Positions 42,768 through 51,955 of a DNA stretch of 64,000 bases are shown here, piece by piece. The position numbers and the translations under genes are program-made. The notes under the pieces were generated by a model. The model was given only the letters and a program-made list of their open reading frames with translations. It did not search any database and was not told where the DNA came from. Source of the stretch: Nostoc sp. MG11 (GTDB lineage: Bacteria; Cyanobacteriota; Cyanobacteriia; Cyanobacteriales; Nostocaceae). Every line of letters starts with the position of its first letter. Positions within the stretch are counted from its first letter, which is position 1. The stretch spans positions 186,001 through 250,000 of the forward strand of contig NZ_JACXXN010000008.1 of the NCBI RefSeq assembly GCF_014904695.1, given 5' to 3'.

Positions 42768-43742
42768 CTAATTGTTTTTAGCCTTGAGTTTAGACTCAAT
42801 CATCTGAGCTGTAGGCTTCTTGACATCCCAAACCAAGCCAACTTTTTCTAATACCCAAATCACGTAGAAACCAAAATCTATTTGCCACCATTTCAATCCA
42901 AAAAGTGCTGAGTTAGAAAAAGCGTGGTGGTTGTTGTGCCAGGCTTCTCCACCTGTGGGGATAGCTAGCCAAATGTTGTTTCTACTATGTTCTTTGGTAT
43001 CAAAAGGACGGCTACCGCATAGATGAGTGATGGAGTTAATACTGCTGGTAAAGTGAAATATGAGGAATAGCCGAACACAACCACCCCAGAGAAATCCCAA
43101 TATTGCACCCATAATCGTCCCTGTGAGAATTCCTCCCAAAATGGTGGGTATAGCCAGACCCAGCAAGGCCCAAACGTAGTAAAGCTGGTTGACCTTAGAA
43201 ATAACAGGGTCACGAAGCAAGTCTTTAGTAAATAGGAAAGTATTGGTGATTTCGTGCTTAAACATCCAACCAATATGTGAATGCCATAGCCCTCGCAACC
43301 CGCCTAGAGATTCACTTTCTTGGAAAAATGGGGAATGAGGATCTCCAGGGCGATCGCTATATTGGTGGTGTCGTCTATGGTTGCTCACCCAATAAGTTAT
43401 TGGCCCCTCACAAGCCATAGATCCCAAAATAGCTAAGATAACTCGGACAGCAGTACTAGTCTGAAAAGCAGTGTGTGCAAAGTGTCGATGAAAACCTACG
43501 GTAATTCCTACCAAGGTCAAGATATACATGCTCACTAACAATCCTATTTCCACTGCACCTATCCCTGAGTAAAAGGCGATCGCTAATGCGGCTACTGAAC
43601 CCACTAAAGGAATCCACAAAAGAGCTAAAGCATGAAGCCGTTGCGGTGTTCTTAGGTAATCACTCTTAATGGTGATACTCTTTTTGGCACTAGGATTTAC
43701 CAGCAGTTCGGCTGGTATGGCACGATCAAGCTGCATTGACAT
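42768..43742 (-). CDS. DesC-type fatty acyl desaturase (first of three)
   Basis: 324 residues, four predicted membrane helices. Histidine boxes HRHFAH (GFHRHFAHTAF), HRRHHQYSD and HNNHHAF. Compared with its two neighbours it has GEAWHNNHHAFSNSALFGLK and ends DFGFYVIWVLEKVGL, suggesting a somewhat different substrate channel. The start MSMQLDRAIPAELL is preceded by GGAAAGAC. It is the gene nearest to the FAAL and would be the first desaturase in the transcript; a 239-bp spacer with a dispersed repeat separates the two. Confidence 0.95.
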   Translation of the reverse strand: MSMQLDRAIPAELLVNPSAKKSITIKSDYLRTPQRLHALALLWIPLVGSVAALAIAFYSGIGAVEIGLLVSMYILTLVGITVGFHRHFAHTAFQTSTAVRVILAILGSMACEGPITYWVSNHRRHHQYSDRPGDPHSPFFQESESLGGLRGLWHSHIGWMFKHEITNTFLFTKDLLRDPVISKVNQLYYVWALLGLAIPTILGGILTGTIMGAILGFLWGGCVRLFLIFHFTSSINSITHLCGSRPFDTKEHSRNNIWLAIPTGGEAWHNNHHAFSNSALFGLKWWQIDFGFYVIWVLEKVGLVWDVKKPTAQMIESKLKAKNN

Positions 43743-43845
43743 TTTGTCTTTCCTGATTATTTTTGACTTATAAATCTCTTGAGGGACTGAAGATACTCTG
43801 GGTAAAGCTGTTGTGAAGTACCATGCGAGAATTCAAACTCTCATT

Positions 43846-43955
43846 CTCTGCGTTTCTGTCTTGAAAAGTTTCCTAGGTCGGGCTAACCCTCCTTCTCCTG
43901 ACGGAGACGCTACGCGAACAGAACTTTTCGCTGCGTCTGTGCGTGAGACAAATTC
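43846..43955. repeat. Dispersed repeat between FAAL and first desaturase
   Basis: CTCTGCGTTTCTGTCTTGAA, AGGTCGGGCTAACCCTCC, GACGGAGACGCTACGCGAAC and AACTTTTCGCTGCGTCTGTG. It matches words in 16500-16620, 23760-23820 and 60345-60440. No gene; could affect read-through from FAAL into the desaturases. Confidence 0.6.
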
Positions 43956-43981
43956 ATATTTTCACTCAACAATGCCCTTTA

Positions 43982-45847
43982 TCAGTCTACTTTGATAGAC
44001 TTTGTGTCACCTTGAACCTTAGAAGTCTGCAATTGCTGCAACAGAGAATCAACTTCAGCATTCAAATGCACAAACTTTGTTTTGCTCTGAGGATTCTCGC
44101 TCCAATCTTCCACTACATCCAAGCTTCCAGTTAAGAAAGCAGCTCGACAAGCGTGGCGCTGAATCTTACCACTCGAAGTTTTGGGAATACTTCCAGTCTT
44201 CACTAATACCGCAGCATAGACTTGCTGTTCATGTTCTGTCGCCACCGCTTGACGAATATCTCCAACTACTTTGTTCACATCCAGTTTTCGGAGATAATTT
44301 CGCTCTACTTCCTGAACAATAACTAATCGCTCTTTACCTTCTACTTCCACAGTAAACACCGCACCAGAACTTGGTTTTAGTACTGGGTTACTTTGTTCTA
44401 CTGTTAGTTCAATATCGTGAGGATAATGGTTGCGACCCCGGATAATAATCACATCTTTGATTCGTCCGGTAACAAATAACTCACCATTCCGTAAAAACCC
44501 TAAGTCTCCTGTACGCAGAAACGGGCCCTCTCCAGTGTCAGCGAGGAAAGTGTTGAAAGCTTTTTGTGTTTCCACTGGTCGATTCCAATAGCCTTGAGCA
44601 ACACTCAAACCTGATACCCAAATTTCCCCAACTTGATCAGACGCACAGCGAGTTAAGGATTCAGGGTCAACAATCAAAACTTGGTTAGACAATTCTTGTC
44701 CGCAGCCGACAATTTGTCTGACCTCTTCTTTTTCAGGAGTCGCTACTACCACTTGGTTTTGCTCAATATCTTCCTTTTTAACAGAGCAGATAACAGGAGC
44801 GGCTTTTTTTAAACCCCCGGTAACAATGAGTGTTGTCTCAGCCATCCCATAGCAGGGGTAAAATGCTTCTCGGCGGAAACCACAAGGCTCAAAAGTTGCT
44901 GTAAACCGATCTAGTGTATCTGGACGAATCGGCTCAGCACCATTGAAAGCTACTTGCCAACTGCTCAAATCAAGATTTTCTCGTTGTTCTGGCGTAATCT
45001 TTTGAACACATAATTCGTAAGCAAAGTTGGGGCCGCCGCTGGTAGTCGCTTTATAGCGGGTAATCGCATTTAGCCAACGAATCGGTTTTTGAAGAAAGGC
45101 TGCGGGTGACATAAATGTTACTGGGAAACCCCCGTAGAGTGGCTGTAACACTCCGCCAATCAATCCCATGTCGTGGTAAGGTGGCAACCAAATTAATCCC
45201 CAACTCTTGGATGTATGCTCAAAAGAGTTATAGATTAATTCTGAATTATGCAGCAGGTTGCCATGAGTAACCATTACACCCTTGGGTATTCCTGTTGAAC
45301 CTGAAGTGTATTGCAGAAATGCCAGCGTATCGCTGCTAACTTTTGGTTCTTGCCAGTCTAACGTTTGTTCGCTGGGATTATCGGTTGACAACCAACGCAG
45401 TGAAGCCAATTCTGGAGTTTCAGAAAATCTGTCTTTTAAGTTGGTCAACACAGGTGTGGTAGTCAGTGCTACTGTAGCCTGAGCATCTCTAACGATCGCC
45501 ATCAGCCTAGACATTTTCTGATTGCGCCGGGGTGGATAAGCCGGAACAGCCACTACATTGGCATACAAACATCCGAAAAAGGCGGCTATGTAATCCAGTC
45601 CTGGTGGATACAGCAGTAAGGCGCGTTCACCACTTGCTTTAATTGATTGTAATTGGACAGCGATCGCCTGAGCCTGTTGATCTAACTCTCGATAAGTTAG
45701 GCGAGCTGATTCTGTCTCTTCGTCTTGCAAAAAAATAAAAGCAATTTGATCTGGCTGGTGTAGTGCTCTGTGACGTAAAAGAGCAGTTAACGTAGGAAAT
45801 CTATGCAGATGTTGCCGGGAGATACTTGGTATAAGGTTCTCTAGCAT
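43982..45847 (-). CDS. Fatty acyl-AMP ligase (FAAL)
   Basis: 621 residues. FAAL enzymes activate a fatty acid as acyl-AMP and pass it to an acyl carrier protein instead of CoA. Motifs: AYPPRRNQKMSRLMAIV, the AMP-binding loop LQYTSGSTGIPKGVMVTHGN, WLPPYHDMGLIGGVLQPLY, SGGPNFAYELCV, YGMAETTL, RTGDLGFLRNGELFVTGRIK and the C-terminal TSSGKIQRHACR with the catalytic Lys. The pattern SGGPNFAYELC and the sequence around PPYHDMGL are typical of FAAL rather than CoA ligases. There is no fused carrier domain; discrete ACPs follow in the cluster. It would start the pathway by loading the free fatty acid. First gene of the co-directional cluster. Confidence 0.95.
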   Translation of the reverse strand: MLENLIPSISRQHLHRFPTLTALLRHRALHQPDQIAFIFLQDEETESARLTYRELDQQAQAIAVQLQSIKASGERALLLYPPGLDYIAAFFGCLYANVVAVPAYPPRRNQKMSRLMAIVRDAQATVALTTTPVLTNLKDRFSETPELASLRWLSTDNPSEQTLDWQEPKVSSDTLAFLQYTSGSTGIPKGVMVTHGNLLHNSELIYNSFEHTSKSWGLIWLPPYHDMGLIGGVLQPLYGGFPVTFMSPAAFLQKPIRWLNAITRYKATTSGGPNFAYELCVQKITPEQRENLDLSSWQVAFNGAEPIRPDTLDRFTATFEPCGFRREAFYPCYGMAETTLIVTGGLKKAAPVICSVKKEDIEQNQVVVATPEKEEVRQIVGCGQELSNQVLIVDPESLTRCASDQVGEIWVSGLSVAQGYWNRPVETQKAFNTFLADTGEGPFLRTGDLGFLRNGELFVTGRIKDVIIIRGRNHYPHDIELTVEQSNPVLKPSSGAVFTVEVEGKERLVIVQEVERNYLRKLDVNKVVGDIRQAVATEHEQQVYAAVLVKTGSIPKTSSGKIQRHACRAAFLTGSLDVVEDWSENPQSKTKFVHLNAEVDSLLQQLQTSKVQGDTKSIKVD

Positions 45848-47379: not shown

Positions 47380-47874
47380 CTATCTGCCCAGAACTTCATT
47401 TCTCCATCGACTTATAGCTCTCAAATAAGCTGCAACTGGAACTTGATAGACCTCAATAAAAATCCAAACAATAATTGATAAATGCGACAAGAAAGTTAAT
47501 ACCGTCCAAATATATGGCATCCAGCTAATGGGCGCTTGTGGAGTAGGCGGAAAATAGTAAGCAACTGTGCCAATTATAGTTGTAGGAAGAATTACAAAAG
47601 CAGCAGAGGCTAATCCATAGCCCCAGCCTAACTCCACACCTTCCAACTGCGCTTCTGTCCAACCGAAACCATTCCAACGCCAAATTAAGGGAGGTTGCCG
47701 AGAAGGCATCTTGATTTGCTCTAGTTCTAGGTTGACAGTAAAAATTTCTTGGCAAAAGTCACAAGCCATAGCCTCCATCAACGGCATATGAGAAATCTTA
47801 CCTATCCGACAGACTGGGCAGGGGTAAACTCCGTGATAGTCGAAAGACGTGGCTAAGATTTTGGAACTGGGCAT
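47380..47874 (-). CDS. Membrane protein with an N-terminal four-cysteine zinc-ribbon-like motif
   Basis: 164 residues from ATG 47874 (an in-frame TTG two codons earlier is less likely). CPVCRIGKISHMPLMEAMAC with DFC after it provides two CxxC pairs that could bind zinc. A short RWNGFGWTEAQLEGVELGWG segment precedes two long hydrophobic helices (about 84-106 and 116-143) and a basic tail. I do not recognise a named family, although the layout suggests a conserved cyanobacterial type. The membrane topology would leave the cysteine motif in the cytoplasm. It is convergent with nothing and stands alone upstream of the aro leader. Confidence 0.72.
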   Translation of the reverse strand: MPSSKILATSFDYHGVYPCPVCRIGKISHMPLMEAMACDFCQEIFTVNLELEQIKMPSRQPPLIWRWNGFGWTEAQLEGVELGWGYGLASAAFVILPTTIIGTVAYYFPPTPQAPISWMPYIWTVLTFLSHLSIIVWIFIEVYQVPVAAYLRAISRWRNEVLGR

Positions 47875-48123
47875 AATCAACTGGTGATCCTAAAAACTTG
47901 ATCGGGTCAATGAGGACTTGAGTAAGAATGATGAATTTTTAGCATTCATTTTGGATCATTCAATTACGCATTAGCCATGACCTAACAATTTTGGTAAAGT
48001 TATGTAACTTTAGCAAGATCTAATGACAAGCGGCCTTCTTAGTCTATACAAACAAGCAACTAGTCTTGATTTCCACAGTCAGTTGTACTGAGTCTATCGC
48101 TTTTTTTGAGCGTTGTGGGGGTC

Positions 48124-48152
48124 TTGACACCGCCGACTCTTTCTGCTAATTT
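48124..48152 (+). promoter_or_regulatory. Probable promoter for the DAHP synthase leader
   Basis: TTGACA at 48124-48129, a 17-base spacer, and TAATTT at 48147-48152. This would start transcription near 48160, about 40 bases before the first leader frame. Both elements are visible; activity is inferred. Confidence 0.6.
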
Positions 48153-48199
48153 TCTGGATAAAGGTGTAAATTAGATTTTTGTCAGCAAACGTCCCGCAA

Positions 48200-48256
48200 A
48201 TGTTCAGCAATAATTCTTACTTTTATTTTTGGTTTAGGGTGGTTCACTGGGAGTGA
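48200..48256 (+). CDS. Leader peptide 1 of the DAHP synthase attenuator (18 residues)
   Basis: ATG 48200, TGA 48254. The peptide is MFSNNSYFYFWFRVVHWE, with six aromatic residues in a row (YFYFWF, codons 48218-48235) and a second Trp at the end. An in-frame TTG at 48179 with AAGGTG at 48161-48166 is a possible alternative start. The stop lies three bases after the first arm of the antiterminator (48241-48251). The arrangement is that of leader peptides in ribosome-mediated attenuation, where stalling at scarce-amino-acid codons exposes the antiterminator arm. Confidence 0.75.
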   Translation: MFSNNSYFYFWFRVVHWE

Positions 48257-48292
48257 ATTGAGTTTCCTAATGGGAACCGCCCAGTGAACCGC
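48239..48292 (+). promoter_or_regulatory. Antiterminator 1 (pairing of 48239-48251 with 48280-48292)
   Basis: GGTTCACTGGG (48241-48251) is perfectly complementary to CCCAGTGAACC (48280-48290), extendable by a G-U and a G-C pair at the base. The second arm overlaps the first six bases of the terminator stem at 48287, so the two structures exclude each other. The first arm lies inside leader frame 1, downstream of the aromatic codons. Confidence 0.7.
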
Positions 48293-48320
48293 AGAGCAAA
48301 CTCTGCGGTTTTTGTTTTTT
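48287..48320 (+). terminator. Intrinsic terminator 1 of the aro leader
   Basis: AACCGCAGAG (48287-48296), loop CAAA, CTCTGCGGTT (48301-48310), then T5-G-T6. A strong hairpin-plus-T-tract about 180 bases before the DAHP synthase start. Confidence 0.85.
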
Positions 48321-48338
48321 AAGGAGCATAATCTCATC

Positions 48339-48404
48339 GTGATTACCTATCTAAGTAACTATTTTTATAGCTTTTACTTTTGGCCCAGAATAAGTTCCGG
48401 GTAG
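48339..48404 (+). CDS. Leader peptide 2 of the DAHP synthase attenuator (21 residues)
   Basis: GTG 48339, TAG 48402. AAGGAG at 48321-48326 gives a 12-base spacing. Eight of 21 residues are aromatic: Tyr at positions 4, 8, 10 and 13, Phe at 9, 12 and 14, Trp at 15 (NYFYSFYFW core, codons 48357-48383), followed by PRISSG. The last codons overlap the first antiterminator arm (48392-48401). No Trp/Tyr/Phe codons follow the run before the stop. The layout repeats that of leader peptide 1. Confidence 0.75.
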   Translation: MITYLSNYFYSFYFWPRISSG

Positions 48405-48443
48405 ATAGCGTCATGTCGATGAATCAGAACGCGCCCGGAACTT
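48392..48443 (+). promoter_or_regulatory. Antiterminator 2 (48392-48401 with 48434-48443)
   Basis: AAGTTCCGGG is perfectly complementary (10 bp) to CCCGGAACTT, which also contains the entire 5' arm of terminator 2. If a ribosome finishes leader 2 it covers the first arm and frees the second for the terminator; if it stalls at the aromatic codons the antiterminator can form. Confidence 0.72.
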
Positions 48444-48465
48444 CTCAAAGGTTTCGGGCTTTTTT
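48433..48465 (+). terminator. Intrinsic terminator 2 of the aro leader
   Basis: GCCCGGAAC pairs with GTTTCGGGC (48451-48459; one G-U pair), a further U-G pair closes a loop of about seven bases, and six T follow. It ends 32 bases before the DAHP synthase start codon. Confidence 0.85.
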
Positions 48466-48497
48466 ACTGTCTTTTTTACTGTAAGGAGAATGGAACC

Positions 48498-49370
48498 ATG
48501 ATTAACGCTAAACTTGCTGCACAATCTCATACTAACCACCAAACAATCGTTAAACTTTCAGAAAAAGTTGTTTTCGGTGGTAATGAACTGGTAATTATCG
48601 GTGGTCCCTGCACTGTTGAAAGCTTGGAGCAAATGGAGACAGTCGCCCAAAAGCTAACTACTGCATCTGTGCAGGCGTTGCGTGGCGGTGTCTACAAACC
48701 CCGTACATCTCCTTACGCCTTCCAAGGTATGGGAGAGGAAGGACTGAAAATTTTGGCTAGAGTGCGATCGCATCACCAAATCCCAGTCGTCACCGAGGTG
48801 ATGTCAATTTCTCAAATTGAAGTAGTTGCTGCCCATGCTGATATGCTTCAGGTTGGTAGTCGTAATATGCAAAACTTCGACTTGCTCAAAGCTTTAGGGC
48901 AAGCTGGTAAGCCGATACTGCTCAAGCGTGGTTTAGCAGCAACAATTGAAGAATTCGTGATGGCCGCTGAATACATCCTCAGTCATGGAAATCCTGATGT
49001 GGTTTTGTGTGAAAGGGGTATCCGTAGCTTCGATGATTACACACGCAATGTGCTGGATTTAGGAGCAGTAGCAGCACTCAAGCAAATAACTCACCTGCCT
49101 GTAATTGTAGATCCTTCCCACGCCGTAGGTAAACGGGAACTGGTAGCACCGATGGCTAAAGCTGCGGTGGCTTGCGGAGCAGACGGATTAATTATTGAGT
49201 GTCATCCAGAGCCAGAAAAATCTGTTTCTGATGCACGTCAAGCACTTTCCTTAGAAGATATGGTGCATCTAGTTGATAGTTTAAAGCCAATAGCGGTAGC
49301 TGTTGGGCGGAGTGTATCACAAGCGATCGGGGCAGGTTCCAAACCCACCCCGATTTTTTGTGCTGCTTAA
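48498..49370 (+). CDS. 3-deoxy-7-phosphoheptulonate (DAHP) synthase, short form without N-terminal regulatory domain
   Basis: 290 residues. It condenses phosphoenolpyruvate and erythrose 4-phosphate, the first step to Phe, Tyr and Trp. Motifs of the class I-beta (AroF/KdsA-like) family: [81 protein letters not shown] and [15 protein letters not shown] with metal ligands. Only about 25 residues precede the barrel core, so the ferredoxin-like N-terminal domain that gives Tyr/Phe inhibition in the Thermotoga enzyme is absent. The enzyme may therefore escape feedback inhibition. AAGGAG nine bases before the ATG supports the start. The leader carries two attenuators. Confidence 0.95.
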
Positions 49371-49526: not shown

Positions 49527-50474
49527 ATGTTTAATGAGGCAATTATTCAATCTGAATTATTGGAACACAAAGCTGATAACAAGCAAAACCTCTGTCAGAT
49601 TCTCACTGTACAGGAATTAAGTCTTCTAAACGATCGCTCCAATACCAAAGGGCTGGTTCAACTAGCTTTGCATCTTACAGTTATGAGTTGCAGTGGCTAT
49701 CTGTGGGCAACGAATTTTGGCAATTGGTCGGTGGCTATACCAGCACTGGTAATCTACGGCTTCAGTCTGGCTTCGATGTTTGCACCAATGCATGAATCTG
49801 TTCATAGAACGGCTTTCGCTAACAATCGTTTGAATGAAGCTGTGGCTTGGTTTTCCGGCTTGCTCTCATTTTACAACAGCACGTTTTTTCGCCGTTATCA
49901 TAAGTGGCATCACCGTTACACTCGCGTTCCTAACAAAGATCCAGAACTGACCGATCCCAAGCCGAGCAACCTGGGCAAATACTTGTTGATAATTAGCGGT
50001 TTACCGTGGTGGTGGGGTAAAGTACATGGGCATTTTCAGGTTGCAACTAGTCAATTTGACGATTTTCCATTTGTACCAGAAGCAGCACGAGCCGAAGTTA
50101 TTCGCTCCACACGTTGGCAATTAAGTATTTATGCTGCTGCGATCGCCATTTCAATTGCAGTTAGTCAGCCTTGGTTTTTCCTCTATTGGCTGCTACCACT
50201 CCTTGTAGGTCAACCGATTCTCCGTTTTATTCTGCTGGCAGAACATACAGGTTGTACTCTTGATGCTAATCTGCTCACGAATACGCGCACAACTCTAACC
50301 CTTTGGCCTGTGCGATTTTTTATGTGGAATATGCCATTTCATGCAGAGCATCATTTGTATGCATCAATTCCGTTCCACACCCTACCAAAAGCACATCAGC
50401 TGTTGAGTCAACGCTTTAGCCATATAGAACCTGGCTATATAAAAGTAAACTGGGATATCATAACTAATTCGTAA
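49527..50474 (+). CDS. Membrane fatty-acid desaturase/hydroxylase family protein
   Basis: 315 residues, about six hydrophobic segments. Histidine boxes: HESVH (PMHESVHRTAF), HKWHH (RRYHKWHHRYT) and HAEHH (MPFHAEHHLYA), typical of the FA_desaturase superfamily that includes DesA-like desaturases, carotenoid ketolases and hydroxylases. It is not of the DesC type found in the lipid cluster. The longer loop with PNKDPELTDPKPSN is unusual. Substrate cannot be told. It has an N-terminal hydrophilic extension of about 40 residues (QSELLEHKADNKQNL). The gene lies on the same strand as DAHP synthase but 156 bp downstream, so a link is unlikely. Confidence 0.9.
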   Translation: MFNEAIIQSELLEHKADNKQNLCQILTVQELSLLNDRSNTKGLVQLALHLTVMSCSGYLWATNFGNWSVAIPALVIYGFSLASMFAPMHESVHRTAFANNRLNEAVAWFSGLLSFYNSTFFRRYHKWHHRYTRVPNKDPELTDPKPSNLGKYLLIISGLPWWWGKVHGHFQVATSQFDDFPFVPEAARAEVIRSTRWQLSIYAAAIAISIAVSQPWFFLYWLLPLLVGQPILRFILLAEHTGCTLDANLLTNTRTTLTLWPVRFFMWNMPFHAEHHLYASIPFHTLPKAHQLLSQRFSHIEPGYIKVNWDIITNS

Positions 50475-50710
50475 TTCGTAACACTCGCCAAGGCGCGAGA
50501 AGCAAGCTACGTAATTCGTAATTAGGATACACATAAAATTGCTGGCGTTGGTAATAAAGAAACTTTACTATCCTTCTCTACTCCCCGTTCGTCTATCCCC
50601 TGTCATCTGTTTACTATTTTCTTTGATTTTTGTTTGCCATAGACTCGACCTTAATGCACCTTTATAAGATTATGAAGAATGATTAAGAAAAATCGGTTTA
50701 GACAAACGTC

Positions 50711-51955
50711 ATGAAGATACTAGCTGAATTGATTGAGATTGAAGCAAAATTACAGATTGATTGGGTTTTAGTAAATACCTGCTTGCAGTTTGCTAGTTGG
50801 GGATTATTTTCACTTTTGCTCGCTGAAGTCTTAAGAGACAGTTATCATGCTTTGTGTCATCAAGTCAGTTGGCTGGCTAAATGGCATAATAAGCACCACA
50901 TGGCGTATCGCCGGGATTTATCGATAGTTTCCCTAAAAGCGTACCAAGATTCTCAGCTCTATCACGACATTTTAGAGTCAAGTCTATTGGTAGTGGTATT
51001 GATAGTAATTGCCTTAGTTGTGCAGCAAATGGGGTTATGGTTGGGAGTAGCTTATGCTTGCACTTTCTTGTTTGGTGCATCCCAACGATATATCCTAGGA
51101 ACAATTGATACAGATTACAACCATTTACCTGGCCCTTTAGAAACAACTCCATCCGTTTGGTGGGTGAATCGTTCTTACCATTGGCGACATCATTTTGATG
51201 ATGTCAACGCTTATTACAGTGGAGTCTTTCCCCTAGTGGATAAAATTCTGGGAACTGGATTATCACTTAAGGGTAAAACAATCGCTTTAACCGGAGCATC
51301 AGGTGCTTTAGGGCAAGCTTTGGCTACTGAACTTTTAAAGAATAATGCTAAAGTCGTCGCTTTAACCACTAATCCAGAAAAATTGGTAGAGCAAGTTGGG
51401 GTGAAGGTGATTCCTTGGCAGTTAGGTAATGAAGCCGAACTGAGGGATAGTTTAGAGAAAATTGATATTTTGATTATCAATCACGGAGTAAATGTCTACG
51501 CTAGTCGCACACCGCAAGCAATTAACTCTTCTTATGAGGTGAATACTTTTTCAGCATTGCGGTTGATGGATTTATTTTTGACAACTGTAACAGGGCCACA
51601 GGCAAAGGCAACTAAGGAAATCTGGGTTAACACTTCTGAGGCTGAGGTGTCCCCAGCACTTAGTCCGCTTTATGAACTCAGCAAACGAGCGCTTGGGGAG
51701 ATTGTCACCTTAAAACGGTTGGATGGAAATTGTGTAATTCGTAAGTTAATCCTCGGCCCGTTTAAGAGCCAACTCAATCCTTATGGAGTAATGTCAGCAC
51801 AGCAAGTAGCTCGTGCCATCCTGTTTTTAGCACGACGAGACTACCGCAATATTATTGTGACAATTAATCCTCTTACCTATATACTTTTTCCTTTAAAGGA
51901 AACTAGTACGTGGTTATATTATCGAATTTTTAGCAAGACAGCGAAGAGTCAATAA
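50711..51955 (+). CDS. Bifunctional sterol-desaturase-like and short-chain-dehydrogenase protein
   Basis: 414 residues with two parts. Residues 1-190 form a fatty acid hydroxylase/sterol desaturase-type membrane domain with boxes HALCH, HNKHH and HWRHHFDD. From about 192 (KGKTIALTGASGALGQALAT) a short-chain-dehydrogenase domain follows, with LIINHGVNVY and a Tyr-x3-Lys site in LYELSKRALG. Such fusions are seen in cyanobacteria under this double name; a hydroxylation followed by oxidoreduction of a lipid or isoprenoid is the obvious inference, with the real substrate unknown. GACAAACGTC precedes the ATG without a strong ribosome-binding site. It lies 236 bp after the desaturase gene on the same strand. 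Confidence 0.92.
   Translation: MKILAELIEIEAKLQIDWVLVNTCLQFASWGLFSLLLAEVLRDSYHALCHQVSWLAKWHNKHHMAYRRDLSIVSLKAYQDSQLYHDILESSLLVVVLIVIALVVQQMGLWLGVAYACTFLFGASQRYILGTIDTDYNHLPGPLETTPSVWWVNRSYHWRHHFDDVNAYYSGVFPLVDKILGTGLSLKGKTIALTGASGALGQALATELLKNNAKVVALTTNPEKLVEQVGVKVIPWQLGNEAELRDSLEKIDILIINHGVNVYASRTPQAINSSYEVNTFSALRLMDLFLTTVTGPQAKATKEIWVNTSEAEVSPALSPLYELSKRALGEIVTLKRLDGNCVIRKLILGPFKSQLNPYGVMSAQQVARAILFLARRDYRNIIVTINPLTYILFPLKETSTWLYYRIFSKTAKSQ

Follow-up and report, generated by a model that had tools for sequence, protein, structure and literature searches.

Introduction

Proteobacteria and actinobacteria provide the textbook cases of ribosome-mediated attenuation of transcription, in which a ribosome on a short leader peptide decides whether RNA polymerase continues into the genes downstream. 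Here we describe a locus of the cyanobacterium Nostoc sp. MG11 (Nostocaceae; assembly GCF_014904695.1, contig NZ_JACXXN010000008.1, positions 186,001 to 250,000 of the forward strand, a stretch of 64,000 nucleotides referred to below as the window) at which two such attenuators, each with a leader peptide rich in aromatic residues, probably stand in series before a gene for 3-deoxy-D-arabino-heptulosonate-7-phosphate (DAHP) synthase. For cyanobacteria, trustworthy evidence of such attenuation was said by Korolev et al. 2016 (PMC4833913) to be missing, and no report of this tandem was present among the matches listed in the open-access literature, which does not prove its absence; a tandem aromatic attenuator in cyanobacteria is likely to be new.

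The classic ribosome-mediated attenuators are those of Escherichia coli trp and pheA/pheST (PMC11802643, PMC3641672). As those sources outline them, the Nostoc locus would have in common with them a leader open reading frame (ORF) with regulatory codons, an antiterminator competing with an intrinsic terminator and the position of the ribosome as the switch; it differs in that the modules are in series, the runs mix Phe, Tyr and Trp codons and the 5' arm lies inside the codons of the leader. A helix that the window and its closest relatives have in module 1 is like the trp protector hairpin in function only. The nearest functional parallel is aroR-aroF of Corynebacterium glutamicum (Neshat et al. 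2014, as cited in PMC11802643), where a Phe-Tyr-Phe leader precedes a DAHP synthase gene that is thereby placed under ribosome stalling at aromatic codons; in that summary there is one leader, responding to limitation for Phe and not Tyr, whereas the cyanobacterial leaders, found in a different phylum, also hold Trp.

Leaders in series are described for Salmonella mgtCBR, where the tandem ORFs mgtM and mgtP are each part of an attenuator, with ATP and proline as the signals, and where the authors state in the section concerned that there are no intrinsic terminators (PMC3641672). The likeness to the present locus is in the two successive leader ORFs; here both are aromatic, both modules have intrinsic terminators, and the signal would be of one class and not of two different kinds. 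Two predicted attenuator units also precede the aromatic supraoperon of Streptococcus pneumoniae in a database of terminator and antiterminator predictions (PMC1173090); these stand before aromatic genes as ours do, in another phylum, and the passage names no leader peptides. From the present locus, a terminated 5' RNA and read-through into the gene would be expected, as with the actuatons of Synechocystis, which are not defined by leader peptides or tRNA charging (PMC5386190).

Results

Two putative attenuator modules precede a DAHP synthase gene

Two complete modules, each composed of an aromatic leader ORF, an antiterminator and an intrinsic terminator that overlaps it, were read directly in the sequence between a putative promoter and the DAHP synthase gene (Table 1), where a preliminary description, made by a model from the letters of the window, had placed them. 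That description had also given an overlap of antiterminator 3' arm and terminator in each module and a leader 2 with 8 aromatic residues of 21, and both statements agreed with our reading. Antiterminator 1 lies at the site that it named, but its helix is of 13 bp and not 11. Antiterminator 2 has 10 bp with an outer A-T pair (48392/48443) and an inner GCGT/ACGC helix, and its leader starts with GTG in the window and with ATG in 64 of 75 sequences. The promoter is the weakest element: the hexamers reported earlier are present with their 17 nt spacing, but the second matches the consensus at 3/6 positions and a consensus promoter scan listed no promoter at this site. Of 75 sequences, 73 have a TTGAC box within the 90 nt 5' of leader 1, and in 52 it stands at -76 to -78.

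A scan of both strands of the 64 kb for an aromatic-rich short ORF with a terminator 15-70 nt past its stop codon, in which the antiterminator was measured and not required, returned two places, exactly these modules, in which the helix that pairs the leader end with the terminator arm measures 13 and 11 bp, respectively; the same scan of 30 first-order Markov surrogates gave no leader-plus-terminator match. Between positions 47800 and 48800, a terminator scan listed two terminators (the hairpins of Table 1) compared to a mean of 0.9 in shuffled sequence. Two such modules are not expected by chance.

Table 1. Features of the tandem leader region and the gene that follows it (window coordinates).
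Feature	Position	Strand	Basis
Putative promoter TTGACA-17-TAATTT	48124..48152	+	direct sequence reading
Leader peptide ORF 1, MFSNNSYFYFWFRVVHWE	48200..48256 (ATG48200-TGA48256)	+	sequence; aromatic run kept in relatives
Antiterminator 1, 5' arm, inside last leader 1 codons	48239..48251	+	13 bp with 48280-48292; covariation; swap test
Antiterminator 1, 3' arm, 7 nt overlap with terminator 1	48280..48292	+	pairing; covariation
Inner hairpin in antiterminator 1 loop	48262..48277 (48262-48267/48272-48277)	+	pairing
Protector-like helix, compatible with terminator 1	48237..48282 (48237-48245/48274-48282)	+	minimum-energy fold
Intrinsic terminator 1	48286..48320 (hairpin 48286-48311 + T-run)	+	terminator scan; covariation in distant relatives
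Shine-Dalgarno-like AAGGAG of leader 2	48321..48326	+	sequence; Shine-Dalgarno-like motif in 69/74
Leader peptide ORF 2, MITYLSNYFYSFYFWPRISSG	48339..48404 (GTG48339-TAG48404)	+	sequence; conserved
Antiterminator 2, 5' arm, last leader 2 codons	48393..48402	+	pairing; covariation; swap test
Antiterminator 2, 3' arm, inside terminator 2	48433..48442	+	pairing; covariation
Intrinsic terminator 2	48433..48465 (hairpin 48433-48459 + T6)	+	terminator scan; covariation
DAHP synthase of 290 aa (type I-beta core; ferredoxin-like regulatory domain absent)	48498..49370	+	TIGR01361, PRK08673, PF00793

The tandem is conserved in at least three orders

Orthologous loci were taken as a main set, the best 80 of 542 related stretches, and a second set of 83 further loci, and were searched with covariance models R1 (module 1) and R2 (module 2). 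In the main set, 10 loci of which were part of each model, R1 and R2 (E <= 0.001) each matched 77 of the 80 loci, and these were the same 77; the three misses (L007, L027, L041) have just 67, 102 and 47 nt of upstream sequence, and three loci at first apparently missing a module (L054, L065, L079) carry both farther upstream. At E <= 0.01, R1 matched 82 of the 83 second-set loci (not L111) and R2 81 (not L105 or L158), with leader 2 of L158 present by ORF scan and one locus (L137) ending at a contig edge. Because 56 (R1) and 48 (R2) of the second-set sequences were themselves in the models, the ORF scan provides the model-free count: both leaders were present in 154 of 164 upstream regions, and the other 10 consisted of four that are too short and six outside the spacing rule, of which L054, L065, L079 and L098 have both modules and two have one.

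When 292 genomes sampled across the phylum were searched, an ortholog (E <= 1e-100) was found in 29, the remaining 263 having none at that threshold. Module 1 was present in 28 of the 29, module 2 in 28 and both in 27, the exceptions being G143 (module 2 only) and G116 (module 1 only). These genomes span ten families, nine of them with both modules, and four families lie outside the order of the window; as two of those four belong to different orders, the tandem covers at least three orders. In these two other orders, an ortholog (E <= 1e-95) was present in 34 of 42 and 45 of 63 genomes, and 30 of the ortholog-bearing genomes were examined in each order.

Antiterminator arms covary and fit their own partners

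Covariation was scored for module 1 in 67 of the 94 sequences with coordinates, thinned for near-duplicates (alignment A3), and for module 2 in 59 of 94 (alignment A4), from which near-duplicates, arms in another register (L155, L157-L166, L144, L146) and L107, L109 and L138 were omitted and where adding sequences with other arms might have lowered the covariation count. Across the 67 diverse sequences, antiterminator 1 had changed on both sides in 8 of 14 pairs and 76 cells (12 and 0 of 500 shuffles were as high), with a covariation score of 0.269 compared to 0.137 in shuffled and at most 0.089 in slid controls, and terminator 1 had done so in 4 of 10 pairs (1 of 500 shuffles as high). Both-side changes in antiterminator 2 affected 4 of 11 pairs, which is not above the shuffles (reached by 231 of 500), and 40 cells, which was reached by none, with a score of 0.206 against 0.144 shuffled and 0.130 for the best slid control. 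For terminator 2, the corresponding values were 4 of 10 pairs (107 of 500 shuffles) and 43 cells (0 of 500), with a score of 0.291 (0.181 shuffled, 0.157 slid). Among the closest loci the arms are nearly invariant, with 97.9% (antiterminator 1) and 94.2% (antiterminator 2) of helix 1 cells paired; there antiterminator 1 gave a weak signal, 2 of its pairs having both sides changed, and antiterminator 2 gave an uninformative one, its values being equalled by 33 to 217 of 500 shuffles. The inner hairpin of antiterminator 1 had 98.8% of its cells paired in 69 Nostocales-type sequences.

Pairing of each 5' arm with its own 3' arm was then compared with pairing to arms from other sequences (10,000 permutations). 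Terminators were scored in all 154 pairs, exceeding the script score in 152 (module 1) and 147 (module 2), and 42 and 66 representatives were drawn from the 152 with both terminators placed. Own arms paired at a mean of -25.3 kcal/mol compared to -21.1 when swapped (sd, standard deviation, 0.42; own better in 82%) in module 1, and at -19.2 compared to -17.0 (sd 0.30; own better in 68%) in module 2, and the observed mean was reached by 0 of 10,000 permutations in either module. In L157-L166 the module 2 arm occurs in a new sequence and register (GGGTCAGG/CCTGACCC) with its terminator overlap kept.

The preliminary description had proposed that conserved leader frames and covarying stem arms in relatives would support its reading, and that a lack of both frame conservation and compensatory arm changes would count as grounds to give it up. 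Frames, arms and terminators are kept beyond the order of the window, and compensatory changes on both sides of both antiterminators, together with the swap test, are what was found.

Terminator 1 itself is nearly invariant in sequence among the 69 Nostocales-type sequences, 9 of its 11 pairs never varying, which is beyond what a terminator needs; judged from this pattern, the terminated RNA possibly has a second role.

Both leaders hold codons for all three aromatic amino acids

Phe, Tyr and Trp codons occur in leader 1 of 154, 151 and 153 of the 154 sequences, and in leader 2 of 154, 152 and 154. Read in frame, the aromatic fraction is 0.53 (leader 1) and 0.62 (leader 2), whereas the other frames give no more than 0.32. 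Counted from its first base, the last aromatic codon stands 9 or 12 nt ahead of the GTTCAC core of arm 1 in 150 of 154 sequences; the distance to arm 2 varies more, being 11-15 nt in 117 of 153 (L101, in which no arm was placed, was dropped). In 140 of 154 sequences, the Trp codon of module 1 begins 12 nt ahead of the arm core. The C-terminal residues of both leaders are strongly conserved in the best-80 set (VH(R/W)E and PRxSSG endings). The peptides of many relatives, which were not counted, have a second Trp codon far upstream in module 2, where the window has Tyr.

Predicted folding with a ribosome on the leader

A ribosome is described as covering 12-15 nt past the P site (PMC3641672), and in our partition-function equilibrium folds its front edge was assumed to stand 12 nt beyond the A codon's first base. 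Taken alone, each antiterminator is predicted to be more stable than its terminator (-29.3 vs -17.2 kcal/mol in module 1; -21.6 vs -15.5 kcal/mol in module 2). With ribosomes stalled at positions 48360-48366 of module 2, the terminator had a probability of 0.08-0.09 and the antiterminator of 0.91, and with the ribosome at the stop codon the terminator was at 1.0. In module 1, a stall at Phe48227 gave 0.56 for the antiterminator and 0.43 for the terminator, this being the sole position at which the antiterminator leads; terminator probability was 0.68 at Trp48230 (antiterminator 0.30), 0.83 at Phe48233 and 0.95 at the stop. The protector-like helix had a probability of 0.90-0.99 when the leader was free of ribosomes or occupied at its first three aromatic codons. 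Its cells are paired in 83.6% of cases among the 69 Nostocales-type sequences and in 58.6% among the 67 diverse ones, and since it is mostly kept in the closest loci and not in the diverse set, we regard it as a local feature.

Relatives with a well-scoring terminator, 152 for module 1 and 147 for module 2, were folded in the same way. In module 1 their mean terminator probability was 0.67 with the ribosome at the first aromatic codon and 0.95 with it at the stop, and in module 2 the two means were 0.59 and 0.95, with a rise above 0.2 in 94 of 152 and 68 of 147 sequences, respectively, and a fall above 0.2 in none. As modelled, equilibrium folding supports switching clearly for module 2, and for module 1 only with the ribosome stalled at one or two of the codons; in the window, module 1 would act in the classical manner only near the fourth aromatic codon, unless folding kinetics matter. 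The folds thus support the classic attenuation logic, which the preliminary description ascribed to both modules, better in module 2 than in module 1, where it is seen near Phe48227 and not at the first three aromatic codons.

The leaders stand before the isozyme without a regulatory domain

The enzyme of the window matched TIGR01361 and PRK08673 over cut-off, and PF00793 together with a weaker NeuB match; the ferredoxin-like domain PF18152 was not found in it by domain search. The same genome has two paralogs of 352 aa (L002) and 354 aa (L003), 51-52% identical to it over the match, and both contain PF18152; within 900 nt 5' of either there was no aromatic leader ORF at the scan threshold. 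As leaders are present and PF18152 absent on the window enzyme, and the reverse holds for its paralogs, control at the RNA level would sit on the isozyme without a regulatory domain. In work on the Thermotoga enzyme, the ferredoxin-like domain reportedly mediates feedback inhibition.

A single module precedes short DAHP synthase genes in a sister class

In a sister class of the same phylum, 5 of 194 genomes encode a short DAHP synthase (E <= 1e-60) different from that of the window. Four of the five, all of one family, carry one aromatic leader each (L207:1773-1900 and the regions upstream of L208-L211), with runs such as YYFWFY and FSFFWFYF, together with a terminator; the leader end and the terminator arm form a 7-8 bp helix, clearly in L208, L209 and L210 and weakly in L211. 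The 500 nt inspected upstream showed no tandem, and the fifth and more distant locus (L212) gave no aromatic leader or terminator module. G236, a genome of this class, is the only non-ortholog genome of the phylum sample with an R2 match; this match (E 0.0041) lies directly 5' of the gene for such an enzyme, whose product of 275 aa is 44% identical to the enzyme of the window. The second-best R2 match in the genome of the window is module 1 (E 0.22 for the genome, 0.0016 within the window). The two modules are therefore suggested to be homologous by duplication, and this is only suggested because an R1 search does not find module 2.

Discussion

We consider it quite probable, from the comparison of sequences, that two ribosome-mediated transcription attenuators in series control the DAHP synthase isozyme that lacks a ferredoxin-like domain, a confidence that was lowered because of the folding result. 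In each module, a ribosome would translate a short peptide with a run of Phe, Tyr and Trp residues. With ample charged tRNA it would reach the stop codon, where its footprint would cover the 5' arm and the intrinsic terminator would form; with aromatic aminoacyl-tRNA scarce, as on starvation, it would stall within the run and leave the arm free, and the antiterminator would form instead of the terminator. For module 1 as it stands in the window, the alternative helix would hold the arm until the ribosome reaches about the fourth aromatic codon, so that only some stall positions would switch this module. Because RNA polymerase must pass both modules, read-through would approximate the product of two probabilities, if these are independent, and such a product of two gates would give lower basal expression and a steeper response. 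As the Trp codon of module 1 mostly begins 12 nt ahead of the arm core, a ribosome stalled at Trp might cover part of the arm. The modules may divide the amino acids between them, although both leaders contain Phe, Tyr and Trp codons in nearly all species.

Several observations weigh against attenuation at both modules. Folds of the window without a ribosome favour the terminators (probability 0.93 in module 1 and 0.98 in module 2), and an idea that untranslated modules read through was dropped on this result. The terminator of module 1 stays at 0.96-0.97 for stalls from Tyr48218 to Tyr48224, because its 5' arm pairs with 48274-48282, and the response of module 2 is uneven, with terminator probabilities of 0.70 (Phe48372), 0.23, 0.38 and 0.83 at its later aromatic codons in order. 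Among the relatives, the difference between first aromatic codon and stop was 0.2 or less in 58 of 152 sequences for module 1 and 79 of 147 for module 2. Leader 1 has no Shine-Dalgarno-like site (0 of 75 sequences of the best-80 set with the window, compared to 69 of 74 for leader 2). Pairwise codon differences within the runs are more often non-synonymous than synonymous (1007 vs 308 in module 1, where 615 of the 1007 exchange one aromatic residue for another; 2006 vs 863 in module 2). Within Nostocales, covariation says little because the arms are too conserved, and the shuffle controls leave the relatedness among the sequences in place. Two ortholog genomes keep one module, L105 module 1 and L111 module 2, and are natural one-module controls.

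Some of these points would be accounted for if one module alone senses, with the other serving as a constitutive brake or as the terminator of a small RNA, similar to an actuaton with a leader RNA or peptide acting in trans. The near-invariance of terminator 1 in Nostocales-type sequences (9 of 11 pairs, 69 sequences), a module 1 that is mostly a closed gate in the equilibrium folds of the window, and the persistence of L105 and L111 with a single module are all in keeping with this explanation, which we nevertheless regard as unlikely: arms, aromatic runs and terminator overlap are kept in both modules across at least three orders, and a module serving only as a brake would not retain its antiterminator. 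The strongly conserved C-terminal residues in the best-80 set, with VH(R/W)E and PRxSSG at the ends, could instead point to conserved nascent peptides that arrest the ribosome, the aromatic residues acting in the exit tunnel. Those residues are, however, encoded by an antiterminator arm that covaries with a non-coding 3' arm, the aromatic residues interchange in the run of module 1, and in L157-L166 the second peptide and the arm change jointly, all of which makes such an arrest distinctly improbable.

We give least credence of all to a T-box or a ligand-binding riboswitch in which the ORFs are coincidental, which is very improbable indeed: pairs of terminators and antiterminators would by themselves fit it, but a scan of the whole window against Rfam gave 0 matches at the gathering score to a T-box or any other leader, the helices are plain hairpins, and aromatic ORFs are present in both positions in 154 of 164 upstream regions. 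Attenuation by ribosomes at both modules thus remains our preferred account. We propose more tentatively, as something possible that we would not yet favour, that the tandem is a signal-processing device kept by selection, in which an attenuator duplicated long ago in photosynthetic cyanobacteria, from a single module like that of the sister class, would multiply two measurements of tRNA charging (module 1 mainly of Phe and Tyr, module 2 also of Trp by way of its upstream Trp codon) and form a steep switch of low leakage on the one isozyme without a regulatory domain.

If two attenuators do act here, coupling of transcription and translation would be at work in cyanobacteria, and engineers of aromatic compounds would gain a defined point of control over a DAHP synthase that has no regulatory domain. 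The natural series of leaders with one and two modules would then also allow the question to be asked of what a second attenuator in series gains.

Other matches and neighbouring genes

Among the non-ortholog genomes of the phylum sample, R1 matched only G030, in which module 1 is followed by a truncated, apparently dead remnant of a DAHP synthase gene (L195) that has lost its start, with module 2 missing as well. Five weaker R2 matches in the genome of the window (L198-L202) have no aromatic leader ORF at the match and were set aside as chance; in L201 and L202, short aromatic ORFs lie about 400 nt from the weak match. The ORF directly 5' of the paralog L003, which bears the ferredoxin-like domain, presumably resembles trpD (L003:82-2289), and the locus itself is flanked by genes that, judged by eye, we take to resemble lipid desaturases and a fatty-acyl AMP ligase (42768-45847, 49527-51955).

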